From: an uncultured Geobacteraceae bacterium
Lineage (GTDB): Bacteria; Desulfobacterota; Desulfuromonadia; Geobacterales; Pseudopelobacteraceae
DNA length: 64,000 nt
Direction: 5' to 3'
Assembly (NCBI GenBank): GCA_903939115.1
Contig: CAJAFV010000097.1
Span: forward strand, 1 to 64,000
The notes beneath the pieces are model-generated. The model ran no database searches. It was given only the letters and a program-made list of their open reading frames with translations, and had not been told where the DNA came from. Position numbers and translations under genes: made by a program. Positions 1-13,059 of this stretch are shown here, piece by piece. The stretch's first letter is position 1. Each line of letters starts with the position of its first letter.

Positions 1-3000
1 CTCTGCCGTTCAGCACATTCCGCCTGAAACTGTTCAGCGGCAACTTCGGCGGCGATCCTGGCCTGATCAAGTTTCTCTTCGGTATCTTTGCGCCCGGCAC
101 GTTCACTCTGCAGCATCTCGTTAACGGATTCGAGTTGTGTGCGTTCGGCTGCAAGTTCAGCCTGCAACTGTTCAACGACAGATTCAGCTGTCAGCCAATC
201 CTGTTCGAGTTTCTCTTCGGCCTGTTTGTGCTCGGCACGTGCATCCTGCAACAGTCCGTTGACACTCTCCAATTCCTGGGTACGTTCTGCAACGGTCTGT
301 TCCAGGTCGCTTTCCGCCTGTCTGCGTTCGGCAAGCTCCCCCTGAAACCGTTCAGCGGCGGCTTCGGCGGCGATTCTGGTCTGTTCCAGTTGCTCTTCGG
401 TCTCTTTGCGCTCGGCATGTTCACTCTGCAGTTGCTCGGTGAGGCTCTCCAGCTTTTTGGTGAACTCGGTAACGTCCTGTTCCAAGTCGTTTTCCGCCTG
501 CCTGCGCTCGGCAAGCTCCCCCTGAAACCGTTCAGCGGCAGCTTCGGCGGCAATCCTGGCCTGTTCCAGTTTCTCTTCCGCTTGTTTGTGCTCGGCACGT
601 GCATCCTGCAACAGTTCGTTGACGCTCTCCAATTTCTGGGTGCGTTCTGCAACGGTCTGTTCAAGAGTCTTTTCCGCCTGCTTATGCTCGGCGAGTTCGG
701 CTTTCAGCTGTTCAACGACTGTCTCAAATTCCAGCGTGCGATCTGTGGCTGTCTTCTCCAGCCTGAATTCTACCTGATTCCGCTCGTCACGCTCGCTCTG
801 CAGCTGCTCGGTGGCGCTCTCCAGCTTATTGGTGAAGTCGGCAACGGCCTGTTCCAGGTCGCTTTCTGCCTGCCTGTGCCCGGCAAGCTCAGTCTGAAAC
901 CGTTCAGCCGCAGATTCGGCGGCCATACGGGCCTGTTCCAGCTGCTCTTCGGAATCCTTGCGCCCTGCACGTTCACTCTGCAGCAGCTCGTTAACGGATT
1001 CAAGCTGTGTGCGATCGGCTGCAAGTTCAGCCTGCAACTGTTCAACAACAGATTCAGCTCCCAGCCAATCCTGTTCCAGTTTTTCTTCGATGTTTTTGCG
1101 CTCTGCAATTTCACTCTGCATCTGCTCAACGACAGTTGCAGATGCTATCCTGGCCTGTTCCAGTTTCTCTGCGGCATCTGCACGCTCGGCTTGCATCTGC
1201 TCAGTGACACTCTCCAATTCCCGTGTGCGCTCTGCAACAGTCCGCTCCAGACGTTCATTGTTACGGAGATACTCCTCCAACAGTTTGCGCTCAGTGATGT
1301 CCCGTAGAAACGCCACGATATGCCCATCTTCGTCTGCGTGACGCTGGACCCGGATTTCGACAGCAAAAAGGCTGCCGTCTTTGCGGCGATGCCGGGCTTC
1401 GAAATGTTCATCGTCACCCGCTATCAGCTTCTGTAAGTGGTCAGCGGTATCTGCAGCCGTATCGGAAGCTTCAAAATCATTAGCGTGCATAGCGAGCAGT
1501 TCCTGCTCACTGTAGCCGCTCATCTCACAGTAGGCGTTATTTACTTCCAGCAGGTGACCAGCCCGCCCCAACAGCCAGAATCCGTCCATGTCGGTCTGAA
1601 TGATGCCGCGATGCTTATATTCAGATTCGCTGAGCGCCGACTCTGCGTGCATATGTTCGGCATGTTCAGCCTGTAGTTGTTCATTGAGCGCTTCGGCCCC
1701 AACCCGGGCCTCTTCCAGTTTCTCTTCGGCTTCTTTACGCTCGGCAGCGCGTTCCGCCTGCAGCCGTTCATTGACCGCTGCTGAGGCTGCCCTGGCCTGC
1801 TCCAGTAGCTCTTCAGCTGCTTTGTGCTCAGTAGTCAGTTCCGTCTGCAGCTCTTCGTTGGCCGCTTCGGCAGCCATCCTGGCCTGCTCCAGCTGCTCTT
1901 CAGCAGCTATGCTCTCGGCAAGTTCAGCCCGCAACTGATCAACGACACTCTGCATTTCCAGCGTCTGCTGTGTAGCTGTCTGTTGCAGGCTGCTTTCAAG
2001 CTTCTGTCGTTCGGCAAGTTCGGCCTGCAACTGTTCGATGATGGTTTCTGCAGCCATCCTTGACTGCTTCAGTTGCTCTTCAGCAGCTTTGTGCTCAGTA
2101 GTCAGTTCCGTCTGCAGCTCTTCGTTGGCCGCTTCGGCAGCCATCCTGGCCTGCTCCAGCTGCTCTTCAGCAGCTATACGCCCGGCAAGCTCAGCCCGCA
2201 ACTGATCAACGACACTCTGCAATTCCAGCGTCTGCTCTGTCGCTGTCTGTTGCAGGATGCTTTCAAATTCCTGCCGTTCGGCACGTTCATCCTGCAGCTG
2301 TTTGTTGGCCGCTTCGGCAGCCATCCTGGCCTGCTCAAGCTGCTCTTCAGCAGCTATACTCTCGGCAAGTTCGGCCTGCAACTGCTCAACGATACTCTGC
2401 AATTCCAGCGTCTGCTCTGTCGCCGTCTGTTGCAGGCTGCTTTCAAACTTCTGCCGTTCGGCACGTTCATCCTCCAGCTGCTTAGTGGCGGTTTCGGCAT
2501 CCAGTCTGGCCTGCTCAAGTTGCTCTTCGGCTTCTTTGCGCTCGGCAGTCAGTTCCGTCTGCAGCTCTTCGTTGGCGGCTTCGGCAGCCATTCTGGCCAA
2601 CTCCAGCTGTTCCTCAGTGCTCTTGCGCTCGGCAAGTTCCGCCCGCAACTGATCAACAACAGCCCGCAATTCCAGAGTCTGCTCTGTAGCTGTCTGCTGC
2701 AGGCTGCTTTCAAGTTGCAGTCGCTCGTCAAGTTCATCCTGCAGCTGTTTATTGGCCGCCTCTGTGGCGGTCCTGGCCTGTTCCAGTTTCTCTTCGGCTT
2801 CTTTGCGCTCGGCAGCTAGTTCAGCCAGCAACTGCTCCTTGGTCGCTTCTGAGGCTAAACAGGCCTGCTCCAGTTGCTCTTCAGCAGCTTTGCGCTCAGC
2901 AGTCAGTTCCGTCTGCAGCTCTTCATTGGCCGCTTCGGCAGCCATTCTGGCCTGCTCCAGCTGCTCTTCGGTACTCTTGCGCTCGGCAAGTTCCGCCCGC

Positions 3001-3665
3001 AACTGATCAACGACAGCCTGCAATTCCAGCGTCTGCTCTGTAGCTGTCTGCTGTAGGCTGCTTTCAAGTTGCAGTCGCTCGGCGAGTTCACTCCTCAGCT
3101 GTTCGTTGACAGCTTCAGCGGCTTTCCAGGCCTGCTCCAGCTGCTCTTCGGCATTTTTTTGCCCGGCAAGCTCGACCCGTAACTGTTCAGCGACACTCTG
3201 CAATTCCAGCGTCCGCTCTGTGACCGTCTGCTCCAGCTCTGTTGGGTAATTTTTCTCCTGGCGCTGCAGCCTGGAGTAATGGATTGCACGTTCAACTAAT
3301 TTTTCCAGATGGATGAAATCGAGGGGTTTTTGGACAGAATCGAATGCGCCATGTTTAATGGCAGCGATCGCCAACGGCGCGTCATTAGAGTCGGCCATCA
3401 GGATGACCGGAGTGTCCGGATAGGCTTTGCGAACACGGACGAGAAGCGAAATACCATCCTCACCCGGCATTTTTATATCGCTAATGATGGTTTCATACGG
3501 TTCTTTTTCAATCATGCCGTAGGCGTCAGCCGCACTACAGGCCATGCTCACGGTATAACCAATTTTCTTTAAATAGTTCGCCATCATACAACACATATCG
3601 ACGTCGTCATCAACAACCAGTATGCGCGGATGAACCTGATCTATGTCCAGATGTGATTTTTCCAT
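1..3665 (-). CDS. Receiver / coiled coil / PAS / coiled coil signalling protein, C-terminus beyond the window
   Basis: The frame is open from an ATG at 3665 to the left edge, about 1,221 residues without a stop at the points I checked, so the gene is truncated by the window. Residues about 13-130 form a response-regulator receiver: acidic triplet DDD at 19-21, phosphoacceptor D63 in SDIKMP, conserved lysine in QKP. The usual Thr/Ser after the fourth strand looks like Ala (LMAD). Residues about 150-670 are coiled coil built from AEEQLEQARMAAEAANE-like units. Residues about 680-795 are a PAS/PAC domain ending in RDITERK, and coiled coil resumes to the edge. A histidine kinase or output domain could follow outside. 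An AGGGGA stretch lies 9 nt before the ATG. The repeats match those of the scaffold gene at 10084. Confidence 0.8.
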   Translation of the reverse strand, partial: MEKSHLDIDQVHPRILVVDDDVDMCCMMANYLKKIGYTVSMACSAADAYGMIEKEPYETIISDIKMPGEDGISLLVRVRKAYPDTPVILMADSNDAPLAIAAIKHGAFDSVQKPLDFIHLEKLVERAIHYSRLQRQEKNYPTELEQTVTERTLELQSVAEQLRVELAGQKNAEEQLEQAWKAAEAVNEQLRSELAERLQLESSLQQTATEQTLELQAVVDQLRAELAERKSTEEQLEQARMAAEAANEELQTELTAERKAAEEQLEQACLASEATKEQLLAELAAERKEAEEKLEQARTATEAANKQLQDELDERLQLESSLQQTATEQTLELRAVVDQLRAELAERKSTEEQLELARMAAEAANEELQTELTAERKEAEEQLEQARLDAETATKQLEDERAERQKFESSLQQTATEQTLELQSIVEQLQAELAESIAAEEQLEQARMAAEAANKQLQDERAERQEFESILQQTATEQTLELQSVVDQLRAELAGRIAAEEQLEQARMAAEAANEELQTELTTEHKAAEEQLKQSRMAAETIIEQLQAELAERQKLESSLQQTATQQTLEMQSVVDQLRAELAESIAAEEQLEQARMAAEAANEELQTELTTEHKAAEELLEQARAASAAVNERLQAERAAERKEAEEKLEEARVGAEALNEQLQAEHAEHMHAESALSESEYKHRGIIQTDMDGFWLLGRAGHLLEVNNAYCEMSGYSEQELLAMHANDFEASDTAADTADHLQKLIAGDDEHFEARHRRKDGSLFAVEIRVQRHADEDGHIVAFLRDITERKLLEEYLRNNERLERTVAERTRELESVTEQMQAERADAAEKLEQARIASATVVEQMQSEIAERKNIEEKLEQDWLGAESVVEQLQAELAADRTQLESVNELLQSERAGRKDSEEQLEQARMAAESAAERFQTELAGHRQAESDLEQAVADFTNKLESATEQLQSERDERNQVEFRLEKTATDRTLEFETVVEQLKAELAEHKQAEKTLEQTVAERTQKLESVNELLQDARAEHKQAEEKLEQARIAAEAAAERFQGELAERRQAENDLEQDVTEFTKKLESLTEQLQSEHAERKETEEQLEQTRIAAEAAAERFQGELAERRQAESDLEQTVAERTQELESVNGLLQDARAEHKQAEEKLEQDWLTAESVVEQLQAELAAERTQLESVNEMLQSERAGRKDTEEKLDQARIAAEVAAEQFQAECAERQ
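1819..2177 (-). repeat. Higher-order repeat inside the coiled-coil gene, about 267 bp period
   Basis: A stretch of about 92 bp at 1819-1910 recurs apparently without mismatch at 2086-2177. The offset is 267 bp, or 89 codons, which equals one 28-, one 29- and one 32-residue coiled-coil unit. Weaker copies continue on both sides through the whole gene. The period is a multiple of three, so copy changes would keep the frame. Confidence 0.75.
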
Positions 3666-3720
3666 GAGGATTGTCCCCTGAGTCAATTTAAAGTCATTTA
3701 ATTTACAAGGTTTTGAATTC

Positions 3721-3737
3721 ATTCGTGTAAATTCGTG
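3721..3737. repeat. Short direct repeat ATTCGTG-N3-ATTCGTG
   Basis: This lies in the 87-bp gap between the receiver/PAS gene and the DtxR-type gene. The opposite strand reads CACGAAT twice with a 3-nt spacer. It resembles a short intergenic repeat family I recall from many environmental bacteria. No promoter is evident here. Confidence 0.4.
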
Positions 3738-3752
3738 GCTAAAACCGGTTTT

Positions 3753-4415
3753 TTATATTTTTACACCATAAATATCTGCTGCGATATCCTGCTCCAGGGC
3801 GATCTGGGTATTTTCGATCTGAATGACATACGCAGGAAACTTTTGGCGGATTTTTATTATTTTCCCCGGTGATACGCCGAAGGAAACCAGCCTGCCGATC
3901 AACACCGGGTCCTCTTTCCGGATGAACGAGATGCGGACCGAATCGCCTATCTCGAAGGCAGTCAGAGGCTTTACAAATGATTCTATGGAGCGTTCAGAGC
4001 GTCTGCAACAATCGCCCTCAGGTATCGGTGAGCCGTGGGGGCACTCCCGTGGGTGTCCGAGCAGGGTGCAGATCGCCTCGGTAAGTCCGGGCGCCAATGT
4101 ATGCTCATATTCGCAGGCCGACTCTTCTATGGCGTCAAAAGGCATGCCCAGAACATCGACAAGGAGTCTTTCCGCTATGCGGTGCCTGCGGATAACCGGC
4201 AGGGCATGCGCTTTGCCATCGACGGTGAGAGCTATCGCCGTACCGCTTATTGTTACCAGGCCGGTTTTTTCCAACTCCGATAAAACCTCGTCATCGACAA
4301 CATATTCGGATGCCTCTTCATGTTCCTTTTTTACATCTTCTACCGTGCAGCTCCCTCTCTCCTCAAATCTCCAGATGGTCTCAAGAACCTCATCGGTTAC
4401 ATGTACAATTTTCAC
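3753..4415 (-). CDS. DtxR/MntR-family metal-dependent repressor with C-terminal FeoA (SH3-like) domain
   Basis: 220 residues. The N-terminal part (1-70) has a winged-helix pattern ending in LTVDGKAHALPVIRRHR, followed by the DtxR dimerisation and metal-binding region with CEYEH near residue 103 and HPRECPHG near 123. Residues about 145-220 match a FeoA/SH3-like domain (FEIGDSVRIS, GRLVSFGVSPG). By family it should bind Fe(II) or Mn(II) and repress iron uptake. It sits 14 bp downstream of feoB on the same strand, so it probably autoregulates the uptake operon. No free-standing FeoA gene is present, and the fused domain may supply or only resemble that function. Metal specificity is inferred from context. 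Confidence 0.85.
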   Translation of the reverse strand: MKIVHVTDEVLETIWRFEERGSCTVEDVKKEHEEASEYVVDDEVLSELEKTGLVTISGTAIALTVDGKAHALPVIRRHRIAERLLVDVLGMPFDAIEESACEYEHTLAPGLTEAICTLLGHPRECPHGSPIPEGDCCRRSERSIESFVKPLTAFEIGDSVRISFIRKEDPVLIGRLVSFGVSPGKIIKIRQKFPAYVIQIENTQIALEQDIAADIYGVKI

Positions 4416-4429
4416 AGTTTACCCCCTCG

Positions 4430-6370
4430 TTAAAAAGCTATATTGGCCCAGCGGAACAGATAGTTCAGGAGGCCGCCGGTCATAATGGCACAGGTGGTCA
4501 CTGAGACGATGATTGCGAGCGCCTTTTGCGACCCCTGCTCTTTGATTATCAGCATAAAATTCGTAACACACGGGATAAAGAGTATTGTTACGACCATTGC
4601 CACAACCAGCTGCGCATGGTTCATCATCCCGGAATCCACCATCTTTTTCAATACGGCAACCCCCGCTTCGCCCCGTATGAAACCCATGATAAGCGATTCT
4701 GCGAACTGAGGCGGCAAGCCCAAAAAACCGCTGATAATGGGTGACGAAAGGGTCTCAATAATAGTCAGCAGTCCGATTTTATCGGCAAAAAACAGTCCCA
4801 GAGCGCTGATGATAAAAAGCGGCACCGCCTCCTGGAGAAATAACAATGACCGGTAAGACGTCTTCGAAAGAACATTTTTCAGGCTCGGAATGCGTATTGG
4901 CGGGATTTCCATGATAAAATTCGACTGTTCCAGCGGCATCATTTTATTCAGTACGATGCCGGTGGCTACGGTTAAAAAGAAGATTACCCCGAATACGACC
5001 AAAAAACCTCCAAATGAAACCTGTGCCAGAATAGCCAGAATAATACTTAATTTTGCGGAGCAGGGAATTCCGAGCGAAAGCAGAAAGATGGCAATGAAGC
5101 GCTCTCTTTTGTTGTCCAGCACCCTGGTGGATATTGTTGCCATGGTGACACAGGAAAAGCCGAGCACCATGGGGAGCACCGCTTTGCCGTTCAGTCCTAT
5201 TTTCCTGAAAGTCCTGTCCAGCAGGATGGAGAGACGGGGAATATATCCTGAATCCTCAATAAAGCCAAAGACAAAGAAAAAAACCGTCAGAATCGGCAAC
5301 AGCAGACCTAAAACAGGAACAACCGCCATGGTATATAGGCCATACTCGCCTACGATAAGATCCCGCACAAAGGCATAAGGGATAATTTCAAGCGCATTTT
5401 TCAGTCGCGGAGCCACCAGGGCGCCAAAAAAATCGTTCAGCAGAAAATCAACGACGAATCCTGCGGCAAATTTACCGACGATGAAATAGAGCATGGCAAT
5501 CAGCGCGATAAGAATTATCGATCCCGTAATCGGGGTTAATGCCATATCACCGATCCTGTTTAATAACGGCGTTGATGATACGGGAGTTACATAGACCGAT
5601 TCCGCGTACAGTGCCTCTGCCCAGAGATCGTTTGCCCGGGAAACAACCAGGCCGAGGGGGCGGTGGAACGTTTGCGTGGTATTTTTTATGATGTGGCCGG
5701 CGTTCTCATTGTCGGCTAACCCGATTTTTTGCTGCGCCCAGAGGGAGGTGGCATGGTCACCGGCGAGCGAAAAAACGGCTAAAGCCGATTTTTCCTGTTC
5801 CTTCAAAGCCCCAGCCCCGATCAGTCCTGTCAAATCGTTAACGGCAGCAACAAGAGTCGCTGGTAATTTGGAGGGGTAACTGGGCCTTTGCCCCTTGCTC
5901 AAAGCAGAAATCAGTGTCGCGACGCCTACGCCCTCGGATGCGATCGTCTCGACAACAGGGATTCCCAGCATCTCTTCCAGTTTGTGCCGTTTAACCTTGA
6001 TCCCCTTTTGTGCCGCCTCATCCACCATATTTATGGCAAGCACCAAGGGAAGGTTAAGTTCCGCCAGTAGTGCGGTAAGCAGTAACGAGCGATTTAGATT
6101 CTTTGTGTCACAGACTTGCACAACCAGATCAGGTTTTTCATCAAAAAGAATATTTCTCGCAACCCGTTCATTGTCCTCGTTGAAAAAAAGGTTGCAGACG
6201 CCGGGCATGTCAATTATTTCAACATCATTCCCGTCCACTTTTATATCGCCCCTTCTCACTTCAACAGATGATCCGGGGTATGAGCCTGTGCTGACTTTGT
6301 CGGTAATTAATCGATCGAAAAGGGTGCTTTTGCCAACGTTCGGTAACCCAATCAGTAGTATCTTCCTCAA
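4430..6370 (-). CDS. feoB: Ferrous iron transport protein B
   Basis: 646 residues. The N-terminal GTPase domain shows G1 GLPNVGKS, G3 DMPG and G4 NMVDEA. A helical linker follows, then a C-terminal membrane domain with many hydrophobic segments and the gate-like sequence GIPCSAKLS. FeoB imports Fe(II) through the inner membrane with GTPase control. It is shorter than the roughly 770-residue E. coli protein but has all main parts. AAAAGGA lies 6 nt before the ATG. The downstream DtxR/FeoA gene completes a two-gene operon. Confidence 0.93.
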   Translation of the reverse strand: MRKILLIGLPNVGKSTLFDRLITDKVSTGSYPGSSVEVRRGDIKVDGNDVEIIDMPGVCNLFFNEDNERVARNILFDEKPDLVVQVCDTKNLNRSLLLTALLAELNLPLVLAINMVDEAAQKGIKVKRHKLEEMLGIPVVETIASEGVGVATLISALSKGQRPSYPSKLPATLVAAVNDLTGLIGAGALKEQEKSALAVFSLAGDHATSLWAQQKIGLADNENAGHIIKNTTQTFHRPLGLVVSRANDLWAEALYAESVYVTPVSSTPLLNRIGDMALTPITGSIILIALIAMLYFIVGKFAAGFVVDFLLNDFFGALVAPRLKNALEIIPYAFVRDLIVGEYGLYTMAVVPVLGLLLPILTVFFFVFGFIEDSGYIPRLSILLDRTFRKIGLNGKAVLPMVLGFSCVTMATISTRVLDNKRERFIAIFLLSLGIPCSAKLSIILAILAQVSFGGFLVVFGVIFFLTVATGIVLNKMMPLEQSNFIMEIPPIRIPSLKNVLSKTSYRSLLFLQEAVPLFIISALGLFFADKIGLLTIIETLSSPIISGFLGLPPQFAESLIMGFIRGEAGVAVLKKMVDSGMMNHAQLVVAMVVTILFIPCVTNFMLIIKEQGSQKALAIIVSVTTCAIMTGGLLNYLFRWANIAF

Positions 6371-6435
6371 TGACTATTCCTTTTCGTGATGATGTACGTG
6401 AATATATTTGTCTGCAAGAACCTATACATCAGTGC

Positions 6436-6449
6436 GAAGAGTGCTCTTC
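6436..6449. promoter_or_regulatory. Perfect inverted repeat GAAGAG-TG-CTCTTC upstream of feoB
   Basis: A 14-bp dyad about 66 bp before the feoB start, in the 296-bp region between feoB and parA. It is a candidate operator. It does not resemble the classical DtxR/IdeR box. I could not find a convincing -35/-10 pair for feoB. Confidence 0.3.
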
Positions 6450-6600
6450 CCGCGTTGACCGGATATTCCAATGAATTTGACGGCCACTTAATGAGAACGG
6501 AGTTGTAGAAAGTTGCACATTCTCACATTGTTTCGGTTGCGTCAATATTTGAACTTTGTTACCCGGATTCTTATTTCCGCTTGCCGCTTGGCAAAATAAG

Positions 6601-6628
6601 TTGACAGCCAACCATTTACAGATATATT
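6601..6628 (+). promoter_or_regulatory. Sigma70-like promoter of the parA operon
   Basis: TTGACA at 6601-6606, a 16-nt spacer and TATATT at 6623-6628. Transcription should start near 6635, about 32 nt before the TTG start at 6667. This excludes any parA start further upstream. Confidence 0.7.
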
Positions 6629-6666
6629 GTCACGCAAAATTAACTGATTCGCAGGGGGCTATTCCA

Positions 6667-7434
6667 TTGATTATATCAATTATTAACCATAAAGGTGGAG
6701 TTGGTAAATCCTGCATTGCCACTAACCTTGCTCATGCACTGGCTGCTCGTGGCAAGAAGATACTGGTTATTGATTGCGACCCCCAATGTAATACGTCCTC
6801 CATTTTTTCTCCTGCCGGTGACATAGCTGAGCCGAAATCCTTGTATGATCTTTATGCGCACGGTACTTCCATTGCCAAATGTATCTATAAAACTTCGTAT
6901 GAGAATATCGATACTGTAATAAACTCTCCACAGATAGCCCACCTCGAAGTAGACCTTTATCAAGACGTAAAAAAATCGTATCAGTTGTTACGAAAGAATA
7001 TGCGGAAATACGCCAATGAACATTATGATGTCACTATAATTGACAACAATCCGTCGCTTGGTCTGTATACAATCAACAGCCTGATTGCCAGTGATTGTGC
7101 CATTATACCGATAGAAGCCGGCTGCCGCTATTCCCTGGACGGTTTTGTTGCCGCTCTTGATGCTATTAGTTCGATTGCTTCACGGGTAAATCCGGAATTA
7201 CGCTTCCTCAAGGCTGTTATCAATAAGGCTGACGGCCGCACAAGCATCAGCCGTGCTTCAGTTGATCATATTCAACGAAGATTTGCGTCCAAAGTGTTTG
7301 CAACCGTGATTCACACAGACACGAAAATCAAAGAAGCCGTCGCTCAAAAGATGACGGTTTTGCGGCATTCTCCTTCATGTACTGCCAGCCATAAATTCCG
7401 ATCACTTGCTAATGAAGTATTAGGGCTCTTATGA
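6667..7434 (+). CDS. ParA/Soj-family P-loop ATPase
   Basis: 255 residues from a TTG start at 6667. AGGGGG at 6653-6658 lies 8 nt before it, and the promoter at 6601-6628 rules out the longer frame from 6556. The protein opens directly with strand 1 and the deviant Walker A KGGVGKS (signature Lys near residue 9). The Walker A' region ends in VIDCDPQ, and a Walker B-like TIIDNNPSLG follows. ParA ATPases form ATP-dependent dimers that coat the nucleoid or a surface and position DNA or protein cargo. No ParB with a canonical DNA-binding domain is adjacent; the next gene, overlapping by 4 nt, only has a ParB-like N-terminus. A protein-cargo role is therefore as likely as DNA partition. Confidence 0.88.
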   Translation: MIISIINHKGGVGKSCIATNLAHALAARGKKILVIDCDPQCNTSSIFSPAGDIAEPKSLYDLYAHGTSIAKCIYKTSYENIDTVINSPQIAHLEVDLYQDVKKSYQLLRKNMRKYANEHYDVTIIDNNPSLGLYTINSLIASDCAIIPIEAGCRYSLDGFVAALDAISSIASRVNPELRFLKAVINKADGRTSISRASVDHIQRRFASKVFATVIHTDTKIKEAVAQKMTVLRHSPSCTASHKFRSLANEVLGLL

Positions 7435-9998
7435 TGACAAAAGTTCGCGGTGGTAAAGGTTTTGACGCCCTGTTTTCCCGGTTTTTCGACGAACCCGGCC
7501 TCAAATCTGCTGTTGATAGCTTGCATGACAACTTTTCTGCGTCGGAATCCGACCACCCCTCTGATACCCCGGCTCACCATTCTTCCGCCAAGCGCGCTCC
7601 TGCTGCCGCTAAAAAGCCGGTTGCCGCTCCGGTCGCTGCTGTGAAACCTCCCGTCAAGAAGAAGATCGCTGCTCCAAAATTGGCGACGGTGCCGGAAGCC
7701 ATACACCAGGAACACCCACAGGATTTTACTCCAGCTAAATCGGGGAGTTTATTAAGCGAGATAACGGGTGGATGGAGTATTGAATTATTAGAAGAGCTGA
7801 CTGAAGAGCTAGAGACCGAACAGCTAGAGACCGAACAGATGGACGACCTGTCGCAGCAGCAAACGATTGATCAACTGCCGGTTATTGATGTTGATGAACC
7901 GGTCCTCAAGGATGCTGTTGAAGTTGTGCACGATGGTGTTGACATCGATGATCGTCAGTTTGAGGACTTTTTTGCGCGGAAAAGCGGGCTGTCTCATGCT
8001 CCTGTTGCCCCTTCTATCGTAGTTCATGAGACTGTTGTTGTTCCTGTTGCCTCTGCTGTCGAAGTACATGAGACGGTTGTTGTTCCGGTTGCACCCGCTG
8101 TCGAAGTACATGAGACGGTTGTTGTTCCGGTTGCACCCGCTGTCGAAGTACATGAAACGGTCGTTGCTCCGGTTGTTCCTGCTGTCGAAGTGCATGAGAT
8201 TGTTGTTGCTCCGGTTGCCCCTGCTGTCGAAGTACATGAGACTGTTGTTGTTCCTGTTGCCTCTGCTGTCGAAGTACATGAGACGGTTGTTGTTCCGGTT
8301 GCACCCGCTGTCGAAGTACATGAAACGGTCGTCGCTCCGGTTGCTCCAGCTGTCGAAGTGCGTGAGACTGTTGTTGCTCCGGTTGCTCCTGCTGTTGAAG
8401 TACATGAGACTGTTGATACTCCTCCGGTTGCCCCTGCTGTCGAAGTACATGAGGTCGTTGTCGCTCCGGTTGCTCTTGAACTGCCAACTCCTGCTGCTCC
8501 TGTGACCCCTGTTGAATCTGATGATCGTCTGATTGAGGAATTCTTTTCGCGAAAAGTCAAACCGGTCTCTCATACTCCTGTTGTCGCTGATGTCGCCGTG
8601 CGTGCCCCCGTTGTCGACCCGGTTACACATGAATACGCTACCCCTGCTGCTCTTGTGTCCCCAGCAGTTACAGAGGATATCGCTGTGCCCCAAAAAACAG
8701 CCGTACCAGTTGAAAAGTCACTGTCTGAAATACTGGTTCATCCACAGGTTCAATTGCAGGATCTGTCGTCTCAAGCACGGAGGAGGCCTCTGACAGAAAA
8801 CCAGGGCAGGATACTGGTCTATTTGTATGAGATTGCCCGAGGCTGTGCGAACGTAGATACCATTAGCAGAGAGCTGGATATCGATTGCCATACAGTGCGC
8901 GAATCATTGCTTGTTCTGGTTACGGATGGGTATTTGTACCTCCTTGACAAAATAAGGGCGAGTAGAGTCCACCCTGCCGGTTTCAGTTATAGAATGAATA
9001 ATTACCTCTGTTCTCGATATGCAGCGAAAGTAAGAGAGGGTGGGGATCTATCGCAGGATCAACCGTTAGATGAGACTATCTGGCAGACGGAGAGACCGGC
9101 AGCCGGCGTTTCGACCCCGCCGCTCGTTATCTTTGGCAGCAGCGTAGCAAAAGAGAAAGAGACCGCTGCTGATCTGAAAGGAAAAAAACCAGCTACGGTT
9201 CAACCGGTCTTGAGTGGCGTGGGGAGTGTTTTTTGGGAAAAGGAGGGGCTTGAAGAGCCGCTCGTCCAGAAGTGGTGTTCCCTTTTCGGAATAGAAGCGG
9301 AACAGATGCACCAGCAGCTCGAATGGGCTCGGTTCGACCTTGAAACAAACAAGCGCCGTGAAACGGTAAAAAAGGATGTGATCAGCTGGTTTTACGACCG
9401 CCTTATGATAACCGGTGGAATCTATCCCCGACCTTCTAATTACCGGAGTGCCGAGGAGCTTCGCGTTGAGGCGATGCAGCACCAGCACGAAAGTGATCTG
9501 TCCGCACAGGCGAAGATCGTTGAAATTGAATTTGAAAATTCATTACAATCGTTTCTGGCTGACACGGAGGCACCGCTTTACCAGGAACTGCTCGGGCGGG
9601 TGAATTCTTTTGCCTTGGAACAGTTGAGAACAGGTGAAGGTAAAGCCGAAGAAATCGGGCTGGATGCTTTGTTTAAATTGCACTGGGGCGCCCCGGGTAG
9701 CGACCCTGCTAATCCCACAGTATCTTTTGCCTTGAGCGGATTGGGAGCGGGACAATCGAATAAGCCTATATCGCTTGCGGCTGGCTGGAATCTGGTGGGA
9801 TACGACGCTGTTTATTCACAGCCGGTCGTTCATGCCATTAGCTCCATAGCCACTTTAATAGTGAGCATCTGGGGATGGAACAACGGCCAGTGGCTCTCCT
9901 ACGCCCCGACCCGGTCGGTAAACAGCCTGACCACGCTCGAGCCGGGTACGGGATACTGGATCAAAATGAAACAACCCGCGGTCTGGACGCTGCCGTAA
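7431..9998 (+). CDS. ParA partner candidate: ParB-like N-terminus, 14-residue repeats, winged helix, GWNLVGY-type C-terminus
   Basis: 855 residues, start overlapping the parA stop (ATGA), so translation is probably coupled. The N-terminus carries [11 protein letters not shown], close to the GKGLDALF segment with which ParB-type proteins contact ParA. An Ala/Pro-rich region follows, then eleven copies of a 14-residue [18 protein letters not shown] repeat (about residues 198-352). Near-identical DDRxxExFFxRK motifs stand on both sides of it. Residues about 453-533 look like a winged-helix DNA-binding domain ([16 protein letters not shown]). Residues about 598-760 are a helical domain I do not recognise ([25 protein letters not shown]). 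The last 90 residues ([29 protein letters not shown]) resemble a domain usually ending secreted Geobacter proteins. No signal peptide is visible. Function unknown. Confidence 0.8.
8022..8486 (+). repeat. Eleven tandem 42-bp repeats coding for [18 protein letters not shown] units
   Basis: Units start at 8022 and step by 42 bp to 8399, then comes one 45-bp unit (8400-8444) and a degenerate last unit. Several copies are almost identical in DNA, indicating recent expansion. All lengths are multiples of three, so copy number can change in frame. Confidence 0.88.
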
Positions 9999-10083
9999 CA
10001 CGAGCTTGTTGAGAACTTTGTCAATCCCGCTGGATACCATGTTGCCTTGATAATTAATGACAAAAACGACTCAAAGGGTCGAC

Positions 10084-13059
10084 ATGCTCAGCCTCCTTAT
10101 CATATCAAATAATCCCAAAGCAAAACTGATTCAAGATTCCATTCAACCGCTGGTCGAAACCGAGATCGGCCTTGTTGCCGATTTCGAACAGGGCCTGAAT
10201 GAACTCTTCGATAAGAATCCCGCCACAGTAATCATTCATGAACGGATCGAGGGCGTTTCCTGCGATGCCGTTGTCCGTTATGTCCGGCAGATGCTCGGCA
10301 GCGATGCGCCGACGTTTATCATGACACACGAAGGCAATGCCGGAATCAGGCCGGAAAAAGGTCTCTGCGAGGTTGTTGTCGATCTGAACCAGTCCAATGA
10401 GATGCTGGTTGCAGAGGTCAGCTCTCTGCTGGATAGGATTGCCGGCGGCGAGCAGCTTACGGATGCCGGCTTACAACCCCACTCTCAGCCGATCTCAGTT
10501 GAACCTGCTCATGGTGCCGCGGAAGCACGTATCGAGCCCGGTACCCTGGCCGAAGAGCCTCTCCCCGATCCGAATGCCCCGTCAGCCGGTAGTGAAGCTG
10601 GTAACTCCCGGCAGCCACGTATCCTTCTGGTAGAAGACAACCTTATCAGCCAGCAGTTGACTCTCGCGAGGCTGATCAATCTTGGTTACAAGGTCGATAT
10701 TGCTCCCAATGGCCAGAAAGCGATCACTGCGCTTGAATCTATAAACTACGACCTGGTGATTATGGATTGGCTGATGCCGCTGATGGATGGCTTGGAGGCA
10801 ACCGCCAGAATTCGTGACAAACAGTCCAAAGTTCTCAATCATGACGTGCCGGTCATCGCCTTGACCTCCAACAAAGAACCTGGCGACCGCGAAAAATGCC
10901 TTGAAGCCGGGATGAGTGACTATTTGGTAAAGCCGGTGAAGAAGGACTATCTGGCTGAAGTCCTTGAGAAGTGGCTGAAGAATCCGCGTGCGGACGGTTC
11001 TGAGCAGCCCCCTGCGACAGAGGCGGAGGAGCAGGCTGGAAGCGAAAAACGGCCACCGAAAAAAAAGCCGGCAAAAGCAGCAAAGGCTGCGACTCCTTCA
11101 GAGTCAGAAGCTCTGGCCAGCGACCAGGCAGTGGCCTCTCCCGAGAACCAGGCTTTGGTGTCCGATATTTTTGCACGCAAACCGCCGGAAGAGTCTCTCA
11201 GTACGGGTGAAAACCTGGAACAGGTGATTGCAGAGCTCACGCTGAAATTGCAGAATGCCGTTGAGCAGCTGCAGGATGAACGTGCAGAGCGCGAAGAGGC
11301 CGAAGAACAGCTGAATCAGGCCAGGATGGCTGCAGAAGCTGCCAATGAGCAGCTGCAGGTTGAGCTTGCCAAGCGCAAAGAAGCCGAAGAGCGGCTGGAA
11401 CAGGCCCGGTTGGCTGCAGAAGCTGCCGACGAGCAGTTACAGATTGAATTTGCCGTGCATAAAGATGCTGAAGAGAAATCGAGTCAGGCCAGGATAGCCG
11501 CTGAATCTGCCAACGAACAGTTGCAGGCAGAACTTGCCGAGCATAAAAATGCTGAAGAAAAATTGAATCAGGCCAGGTTAGCCGCAGAAGCCGTCAATGA
11601 ACAGCTGCAGATAGAACGTGCCGAGCATGAAGATGCTGAAGAGAAATTGAATCAAGCCAGGTTAGCCACAGAAGCCGTCAATGAACAGCTGCAGGCAGAG
11701 CATGCAGAACGCGAAGCTGCCGAAGAGCTGCTGAAACAGGCGAGGATGGCCGCAGAAGCTGCCGACGAGCAGTTACAGGTTGAGTTTGGCGCGCACAAAG
11801 ATGCCGAAGAAAAATTAAATGATGCCAGGATTGCTACCGAAGCTGTCGTTGAACAGCTGAGGGCTGAACTCGCCGAGCGTATAGCTGCTGAAGAACAACT
11901 GAATCAGGCCAGGATAGCCGCCGAAGCTGCCAACGAGCTGTTAAAGGCTGAAAATGCCGAGCGGCAGCAGTTGGAAAGCAGCCTGCAGCAGAGCGCTACT
12001 GAGCTCAATCTGGAATTACAAACGGTCGTTGAGCAGTTGCAGGTTGAGCTTGCCGAGCGCGAAGATGCCGAAGAGAAATTGAAGCAGGCCAAAATAGCCG
12101 CAGAAGCTGAAAATGAACAGCTGCAGGCTGAACTTGCTGAACGCGAAGAGGCTGAAGAGCAGTTGAAACGGGCTAAAACGGCCGCCGAAGCAGCAAACGA
12201 ACAGCTGCAGGTTGAACTTGTCGAGCGAAAAAATGCAGCAGAGAAGCTTAACCTGGCCTTGATAGCCGCCGAATCTGCCAGGGAGCAGTTACAGATTGAA
12301 CTCGCCGACGCACTTCGCGCACCTGCCGCTGTGACCGGAACGATTAACGCTGCGCCATCACCGACTGATTTTTACATCAGCACCTCTACTGCGGAAGAAA
12401 AAGAGCTGTTTCCCGAAGAGAAACCGTTGGCATTTGCTGAAAAGTCTCCCTCCGGCTCGCGGAATTGGATTGTCCTGCTCACCGCCCTCGTTCTGCTGAG
12501 TTCAGTCGCTGGTGGGTTGTATCTGTTCAAAAAGAAGCCCCAGACGCCGCCGGTATCCGATGGAGCAAAAACAGCCGCACCGGTTGCTACGCCGACTCCG
12601 GGTGCCAAAACACCACTTGCGGTGAAGCAGCCTGCTGTACCTTCTCCGCCTTCTCCACCGGATAAGAAAGCGATAACAAGCCAGGCAAAGCCGGTTCCCG
12701 CTCTGAATTCACCACTGCCATCATTTGTCACGGTTAGTGGTCGCGACAAAGAGTATTCAGTCAAGAACCCGGGTTGGGAACGGTATGTGGACTCAAAGCA
12801 TGACGTCCGCATCTATCGCTTAGCCGGGAAGATTAAGGCGGTTCAGGTTCTGGCCGCTAAAAGCCAGGTGATAGCGTCCTCTTTTATGCGCACGGCGCTG
12901 CGCGAGGTGTCGGGCCGCAGCGAGTACAAGGAAATTTCCCGCGAGGTGAAAGAGGGCTTTTTGATCCAGCGCAACAGCGTAGGCCCCAAGTCCAAGCTGA
13001 CCGTGTACCGCATGCAACCGTCGGAAAAAATAAGTGCTTTTGTTGTGAAGCTGGAATAA
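10084..13059 (+). CDS. Receiver-domain scaffold with long 28-residue-repeat coiled coil, one membrane segment and C-terminal domain
   Basis: 991 residues from the ATG at 10084, with AAAGGG 5 nt upstream; the ATG at 10057 has no such site. Residues 1-115 look like a degenerate receiver. Residues about 178-300 are a canonical receiver (LLVEDN, phosphoacceptor in VIMDWLMP near 226, LVKPVKK). Residues about 374-745 form a coiled coil of AEEKLNQARLAAEAVNEQLQ-like units. A hydrophobic segment (WIVLLTALVLLSSVAGGLYLF) near 794-815 crosses the membrane once. A Pro-rich linker then leads to a roughly 110-residue C-terminal domain (about 879-991) that I do not recognise, probably periplasmic. It lies 85 bp behind the ParA pair on the same strand and could be its cargo or anchor. 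There is no kinase or output domain. Confidence 0.8.
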   Translation: MLSLLIISNNPKAKLIQDSIQPLVETEIGLVADFEQGLNELFDKNPATVIIHERIEGVSCDAVVRYVRQMLGSDAPTFIMTHEGNAGIRPEKGLCEVVVDLNQSNEMLVAEVSSLLDRIAGGEQLTDAGLQPHSQPISVEPAHGAAEARIEPGTLAEEPLPDPNAPSAGSEAGNSRQPRILLVEDNLISQQLTLARLINLGYKVDIAPNGQKAITALESINYDLVIMDWLMPLMDGLEATARIRDKQSKVLNHDVPVIALTSNKEPGDREKCLEAGMSDYLVKPVKKDYLAEVLEKWLKNPRADGSEQPPATEAEEQAGSEKRPPKKKPAKAAKAATPSESEALASDQAVASPENQALVSDIFARKPPEESLSTGENLEQVIAELTLKLQNAVEQLQDERAEREEAEEQLNQARMAAEAANEQLQVELAKRKEAEERLEQARLAAEAADEQLQIEFAVHKDAEEKSSQARIAAESANEQLQAELAEHKNAEEKLNQARLAAEAVNEQLQIERAEHEDAEEKLNQARLATEAVNEQLQAEHAEREAAEELLKQARMAAEAADEQLQVEFGAHKDAEEKLNDARIATEAVVEQLRAELAERIAAEEQLNQARIAAEAANELLKAENAERQQLESSLQQSATELNLELQTVVEQLQVELAEREDAEEKLKQAKIAAEAENEQLQAELAEREEAEEQLKRAKTAAEAANEQLQVELVERKNAAEKLNLALIAAESAREQLQIELADALRAPAAVTGTINAAPSPTDFYISTSTAEEKELFPEEKPLAFAEKSPSGSRNWIVLLTALVLLSSVAGGLYLFKKKPQTPPVSDGAKTAAPVATPTPGAKTPLAVKQPAVPSPPSPPDKKAITSQAKPVPALNSPLPSFVTVSGRDKEYSVKNPGWERYVDSKHDVRIYRLAGKIKAVQVLAAKSQVIASSFMRTALREVSGRSEYKEISREVKEGFLIQRNSVGPKSKLTVYRMQPSEKISAFVVKLE
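11299..12318 (+). repeat. Tandem 84-bp (28-residue) coiled-coil repeats
   Basis: Eight successive units of exactly 28 residues (11299-11970) are followed by one 32-residue unit of a different type beginning LESSLQQ (11971-12066) and three more 28-residue units (12067-12318). 28 residues equal four heptads. The same two unit types occur in the minus-strand gene at 1-3665. Confidence 0.85.

Follow-up and report, generated by a model that had tools for sequence, protein, structure and literature searches.

The DNA considered here, called the window throughout, is the first 64 kb (64,000 nucleotides) of contig C97 (166,609 bp) in the 4.76-Mb genome (G000) of an uncultured Geobacteraceae bacterium (GCA_903939115.1). 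It carries a three-gene operon in which a promoter is followed by parA1, the gene of a ParA-type ATPase, by the gene of a large partner protein, and by a third gene, which encodes a membrane receiver protein (Table 1). parA1 starts with TTG (6667) behind GGGGG and stops at 7432-7434, within the ATGA that opens the partner gene. An initial annotation, made from the letters of this DNA, had read the same elements: a promoter, the ATPase, a partner overlapping it by 4 nt and, 85 bp further on, a receiver protein with a coiled coil and one membrane segment. All of these hold.

Table 1. The operon, its parts and associated genes; positions refer to the window unless a contig or locus is named.
Feature	Position	Strand	Description and basis
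Promoter	6601..6628	+	Sigma-70-like, TTGACA-16-TATATT; 11/12 consensus positions
Promoter block	6616..6631	+	TTACAGATATATTGTC, conserved block in promoter spacer and -10 element; candidate operator
parA1	6667..7434	+	255-amino-acid (aa) ParA-type ATPase, KGGVGKS Walker A, without N-terminal helix-turn-helix (HTH); Pfam, structures, alignment, tree
Partner gene	7431..9998	+	855 aa; ATG 7431, 4-nt ATGA overlap with parA1
Partner domains, N-terminal half			Basic N-terminal motif, residues 1-36; repetitive linker; probable winged helix, ~451-530
Partner domains, C-terminal half			Conserved C-terminal domain, ~593-753; WNLVGY domain, ~782-855
Repeat in partner gene	7997..8473	+	42 bp (14 residues) x 11.3, in the variable linker
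Third gene, membrane receiver protein	10084..13059	+	ATG 10084 gives an 85-bp gap; in-frame ATG 10057 also possible
Third-protein domains, N-terminal part			Numbered from ATG 10057: pseudo-receiver; receiver, 186-305; coiled coil, 385-755
Third-protein domains, C-terminal part			Numbered from ATG 10057: membrane segment, ~805; C-terminal domain, 881-1000
Repeat in third gene	11262..12313	+	84 bp (28 residues) x 12.4, encoding the coiled coil; not conserved in G014 and G004
feoB and feoA	3756..6370	-	Divergent neighbour of the operon, separable from it; Pfam
feoA	3756-4415	-	Encodes a FeoA domain joined to the dimerisation domain of an iron-dependent repressor; adjacent to feoB
parA2 and DUF697 gene	G000:C85:44221-45165 (L064); L037:3804-5532; L038:1218-3056		Second ParA-like ATPase and its DUF697 partner

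ParA1 matches the Pfam family AAA_31 (E 1.9e-42), and its nearest solved structures are Soj/ParA proteins (1wcv, E 2.8e-31); by structure match, it scores higher with Soj than with McdA, MipZ or FleN. The Walker A (KGGVGK), A' (DxDPQ) and Walker B motifs are present in all six genomes that carry the gene, hereafter the carriers. Among these, ParA1 is 77-93% identical, its frames are open, and its divergence roughly tracks that of the product of a gene further along the contig, which we take to be GlnE (79-90%; matched in 57 of 58 close relatives). The protein ends soon after the ParA core, as judged from its sequence. With 255 residues and no HTH, it fits the small kind in the division of ParAs into Ia and Ib (PMC9178275).

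The ancestry of ParA1 is read from a tree of 32 ParA rows, from which the pDMC1 and pDVUL01 ParAs had been removed by an open-reading-frame filter. The six ParA1 proteins form one clade (100/100), which nests within plasmid- or mobile-type ParAs (97/97 for 12 rows) and has as its sister a further ParA of one carrier, the C84 copy of G014 (96/90). Chromosomal Soj proteins are placed elsewhere, and the tree rules out ParA1 as a paralog of these. Only the inner nesting carries weight here, because support for the deepest splits of the tree is weak and several long branches come together. The genome carries a separate soj-parB pair of its own, which makes ParA1 an extra. A plasmid-type origin of ParA1 is well supported by these comparisons. 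A phage origin was considered as well: 158 phage records have a ParA match, all below 60% identity.

The partner had been described as ParB-like. Its start does resemble that of the genome's own ParB (GGLGKGMAALL), by eye and with no chance level for the motif, but the likeness goes no further: Pfam gives no match up to E 1, neither ParB_N nor HTH_ParB, whereas ParB of the same genome, used as a control, matches ParB_N at E 8.1e-36. A canonical ParB is thereby ruled out. A PDB search with the partner returns a single match, at E 0.69. Across Pfam, PHROGs and NCBIfam, plasmid-type partners give only a weak winged helix-turn-helix (wHTH) and a few other sub-threshold or low-complexity matches, and the probable winged helix rests on such sub-threshold matches (0.011 in the window's partner; MarR_2 at 0.0019 in the partner of G020). 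Conservation follows the modules: in the four carriers compared with the window (G021, which is partial, is omitted), identity is 75-100% in the N-terminus, 55-81% in the wHTH segment, 59-86% in the C-terminal domain and 62-83% in the WNLVGY domain, and 8-46% in the linkers. Hydropathy flags three scanning windows in the V/A/P-rich linker of the window's partner and none in the partner of G024; they are not taken to be membrane segments.

A protein search with the partner of G020 yields 49 relatives; the WNLVGY domain is absent in 45 of them and present in four. Shorter relatives share the N-terminal and core columns of the window's partner, and W186, C187, W203, D207 and Y242 of its core are invariant in a 47-row alignment. 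P0030 and P0049 start with MARGKGKSGLDALF, the GLDALF N-terminal motif that they share with the window's partner. What the window-type partner has in addition to the shorter type is long repetitive linkers and the WNLVGY domain, which is matched once per genome, within the partner, in the four carriers searched. Distant WNLVGY matches lie in large proteins of G245 and P0066, and the Pfam list of the latter includes domains that we take to be extracellular. IMG/VR holds one relative of the partner, 34% identical. By alignment, the partner is related to plasmid-type partners.

Six plasmid cassettes from Desulfobacterota (pDMC1, pDRET01, pDVUL01, the BuS5 plasmid, Do28_1 of Desulfosarcina ovata and pHRM2a) have ParAs 34-40% identical to ParA1 and a partner gene directly downstream, with a like layout of parts by eye; the pDRET01 partner is annotated as a helix-turn-helix protein. 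Neither the WNLVGY domain nor a relative of the third gene is present in the stretches fetched from them. The same is true of mobile-type cassettes from the same class (G032, G020, G023, G263, G270 and the C84 copy of G014), which combine a ParA 41-48% identical with an overlapping gene for a partner of 456-508 aa. Four of these cassettes have telling genes nearby: within ~9 kb, RepA_C (7e-28) in G032, a TraI_2-like gene (6.5e-5, slightly below the Pfam cut-off) with a T4 coupling protein (2.5e-18) in G020, and an integrase on the G014 C84 contig; the G263 contig has a topoisomerase. No replication or transfer gene was seen with the G023 and G270 cassettes. At 13 plasmid-type loci there are no relatives of the WNLVGY domain or of the end domains of the third protein.

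The operon thus shares with plasmid-type cassettes a ParA of the plasmid clade and an adjoining partner with a basic N-terminus, a wHTH (sub-threshold matches only) and a C-terminal domain. It differs from them in its surroundings. None of the 12 neighbouring genes scanned with Pfam, which are part of the contig's genes, is a replication or transfer gene; downstream lie a PALP-family enzyme, a sulfite reductase, an ABC transporter, an FAD oxidoreductase and a LysR regulator. Since these neighbours are ordinary chromosomal genes, the setting of the operon is chromosomal. Likeness to the canonical Soj-ParB (ParABS) systems lies in the ParA fold and motifs and, by eye, in the GKG-type N-terminus of the partner; difference lies in the partner's lack of ParB_N and HTH_ParB and in the upstream region (6371-6690), where no repeat array or parS-like array was found, only two-copy repeats and imperfect inverted repeats; a parS site of another sequence could lie elsewhere. 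The initial annotation had likewise noted no parS-like site and no canonical ParB domain nearby.

ParAs that position proteins (ParC, PpfA, McdA, PomZ) resemble ParA1 in being extra chromosomal ParAs with a co-encoded partner that has a basic N-terminus. A basic, disordered N-terminus of the partner is reported to be the ATPase contact shared in the ParA family (PMC10241942; PMC7993993), and grafting one on an interaction domain can reportedly yield an activating protein (PMC7993993). Among the titles listed by the literature searches, none concerned this operon or described a chromosomal ParA paired with a receiver.

With the partner as query at E 0.001, matches occur in 9 of 58 close relatives and 14 of 277 genomes of the class, the window's genome included. 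The window-type partner is found in six of the 277, all in the window's genus (G000, G024, G008, G014, G004 and G021), and these are the six with ParA1 at 77-100% identity. The shorter type occurs in G020, G023, G032, G263 and G270, and as one extra copy each in G014 and G008; in G245, G217 and G111 the match is confined to the WNLVGY domain or a linker. The order parA1-partner-third gene is identical in all five readable loci (G000, G024, G008, G014, G004), and in G021 one contig ends inside the partner and the end of the third gene lies at the edge of another. The check for co-conservation suggested by the initial annotation is therefore borne out, and neither finding that it had named as counting against it, genes failing to co-occur in relatives or a parS array with a plasmid-type replication function, was encountered in the upstream region and the 12 neighbouring genes scanned. 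On the GlnE tree the carriers do not group together, and at least 3-4 gains or losses are needed.

The third protein has one receiver domain by Pfam (2.2e-25), with the receiver pocket motifs present, and one hydrophobic segment, starting near residue 805. The coil segments 385-577 and 579-755 are devoid of P, G, C and W; the first shows a clear heptad periodicity, the second a weak one. Beyond the features already annotated, the protein has a degenerate N-terminal receiver-like domain, the pseudo-receiver, and a conserved C-terminal domain. Identity to the window is 62-90% in the receiver, 53-67% in the C-terminal domain, 50-76% in the membrane segment and 50-65% in the pseudo-receiver; the coil is 53-61% identical in G024 and G008 and 13-15% in G014 and G004, whose orthologs have three receiver domains each (Pfam) and no long coil. 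The coiled coil is dispensable, and its absence from these two orthologs rules it out as an essential scaffold and as a required part of the system, and sets the operon apart from PomXYZ-like systems, in which such a partner is conserved.

The C-terminal domain of the third protein occurs in 48 of the 58 genomes; apart from the operons of the carriers, most frames that encode it are ~370-650 aa long. By eye, the three examples read (G028, G047 and G000 C6) share the pseudo-receiver of the window's protein and combine it with a membrane segment and the C-terminal domain, and the window's third protein looks like a member of this family with a receiver and a coil inserted. A LysM protein with a likely signal peptide follows two of these three. 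At L071:1716-4710 and L070:1313-3717, a pseudo-receiver/membrane/C-terminal-domain protein is followed by a LysM protein, the first without a Pfam match. The coil of the third protein of G008 (L038:3095-7996, minus strand) matches DivIVA with 28.8 bits at a cut-off of 28, probably a coiled-coil similarity.

The promoter scan finds three sites against a shuffled mean of 1.1, and a consensus match alone is weak evidence; the block is conserved upstream of parA in all six orthologs. A similar TTGACA block is seen by eye 5' of the plasmid-type parA in G032 and G020, the two inspected. The pattern TTACRKATRTADTGTY, derived from the six promoters, has no other copy in five of the six carrier genomes and one extra copy in G021; its reversed control gives 0 in the six genomes. 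For this pattern, a dispersed parS built of the promoter block is ruled out by its single occurrence in five of six genomes, and on the simplest reading the block is predicted to be a single operator for autoregulation.

The gene order, the nesting of ParA1 in the plasmid clade, the homology and layout of the partner, the conservation by module and the chromosomal setting are supported by these results. The best explanation, which we hold with even confidence, is that the chromosome of an ancestor within the genus took up a plasmid partition pair, which was then joined in an operon with a membrane-anchored receiver protein and repurposed, most likely for ParA-driven positioning. Positioning as such, the part of the initial proposal that survives as the likeliest function, is reached by reasoning and stands at about an even chance. 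ATP-bound ParA1 dimers would coat the nucleoid, the basic N-terminus of the partner would locally stimulate ATP hydrolysis, and the partner with its load would ride the resulting ParA gradient. Cargo or anchor would be provided by the other domains of the partner or by the membrane receiver protein, which the partner may contact and whose receiver phosphorylation may gate positioning.

Several observations weigh against this explanation. The Walker B context of ParA1 (window 7036-7056) reads IDNNPS in all six carriers, as against DCPP in 22 of 26 other aligned ParAs, and catalysis could be altered. When 72,556 plasmid records were searched by tblastn with the partner of G020, only the BuS5 partner was found, at 24.8% over 31%, so that the link to plasmid partners is made by layout and the ParA neighbour, not by score. 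The distribution in the class is thin (6/277), the coil and the neighbouring kinases are not conserved among carriers, and the kept winged-helix segment and conserved promoter block would also fit pure autoregulation.

The alternative that survives best, though we think it rather unlikely, is that the pair is still a DNA partition cassette, in which the partner would bind a site on the chromosome, possibly the promoter block itself, ParA1 would keep the region or an integrated element placed, and the membrane protein would anchor it. Ancestry among plasmid-type ParAs would suit this, as would the preserved winged-helix segment and a promoter block kept in 6/6 carriers with no other copy in five. 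The operon nevertheless lacks a repeat array upstream and replication or transfer genes among the neighbours scanned, it persists at differing chromosomal sites (beside feoB in five carriers, elsewhere in G008), and the 13 plasmid-type loci have no relatives of its distinguishing domains. Somewhat less probable still is a regulatory switch, with ParA1 and the partner forming an ATP-dependent transcription regulator that answers to the receiver protein and positions nothing. The probable winged helix, the one promoter-block site per genome in five of six and the receiver pocket motifs are all in keeping with it. The most conserved part of the partner is, however, its N-terminus, which resembles reported ATPase-activating peptides, and long variable linkers with an extra C-terminal domain are, as a matter of general knowledge, unusual for a repressor.

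The initial annotation had proposed that the operon positions the coil scaffold and the kinases encoded around it, which now appears very unlikely. A convergent hybrid-kinase gene, identified by BLAST to that of the window, adjoins the operon in G000, G014 and G004 and is missing in G024 and G008, and a coil response regulator occurs in G000, G024 and G021. The five readable loci share no signalling neighbour: the G008 locus has neither gene, with an OmpR-like response regulator upstream. In two genomes, moreover, the third protein has no coil. The picture of a scaffold and local kinases is thus unsupported by the relatives. Slightly less credible again is the view that the operon is what remains of an integrated plasmid, decaying and no longer functional, to which the patchy distribution on the GlnE tree lends some colour but which is at odds with the 77-93% identity of ParA1, motifs intact in 6/6, open frames, module-specific constraint and a divergence that roughly follows GlnE.

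Other genes around the operon are more loosely tied to it. feoB is the divergent neighbour in five carriers; feoAB as a functional partner is weakened because G010 has a feoAB ortholog (74%) without the operon and the operon of G008 is not beside feoAB. The coil response regulator of the window (3-3722, minus strand), a response regulator with a very long coiled coil and a PAS domain, is cut by the contig start, and its relatives adjoin feoA in G024 and G021. A likely secreted protein with a FEIP.SEL motif (for example L068:8468-9175, L039:5252-6082 and G024:C3:133519-134196) adjoins, in G014 and G004, the feoA that neighbours the parA1 operon and, in G021, parA2, described below. It is found in 14 of 58 genomes, the six carriers and eight others, and its presence in the eight non-carriers makes it weak evidence. 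On the contig of parA1 itself, ~105 kb away, a region that is possibly a mobile element (G000:C97:109000-117000, L073) contains a DinB-like polymerase (by eye), a ParA-like ATPase (STKGGAGK) and uncharacterised genes.

A second, ParA-like ATPase (ParA2) accompanies the first. In G024 and G008, parA2 and then a DUF697 gene lie directly after the third gene in the same direction, and in G000 the pair is on another contig, C85. In the three orthologs aligned, the Walker A motif of ParA2 reads RGGIGKT, with arginine in place of the signature lysine. ParA2 orthologs (83-93%) occur in 7 of the 37 same-genus genomes searched (a 38th, G247, lies outside the search), namely all six carriers and G012 only, and a DUF697 gene follows in all seven. 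The hydropathy peaks of five DUF697 proteins (1.56-1.95) are borderline for membrane segments; the family is presumably membrane-associated. Co-occurrence of ParA1 and ParA2 gives a Fisher p of 3e-6 over the 37 genomes, a test that ignores descent and counts G002, which has no GlnE match and is missing from the GlnE tree. A pair test finds three independent pairs on starred branches (four on all), with ParA2 concordant in 2.9 of 3 on average and a median sign-test p of 0.25 (0.5 the other way round); three to four independent events are too few for this test, and the association is suggestive, not significant. It is conceivable, if doubtful, that a two-ParA positioning machine arose from the domesticated plasmid cassette, in which ParA1 with its DNA-binding partner and ParA2 with its DUF697 partner would act on one membrane-spanning, phosphorylation-controlled receiver protein, and a two-component signal would set the place of the complex between nucleoid and membrane.

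The mixed presence and absence of the operon within one genus makes deletion and swap tests possible. Under the favoured reading, a plasmid partition pair repurposed on the chromosome, the locus would make it possible to trace how a plasmid segregation pair became a chromosomal module, since plasmid-type cousins from the same genus can be set beside it, and it would tie a ParA system to a phospho-receiver, through which signalling could control position in the cell.

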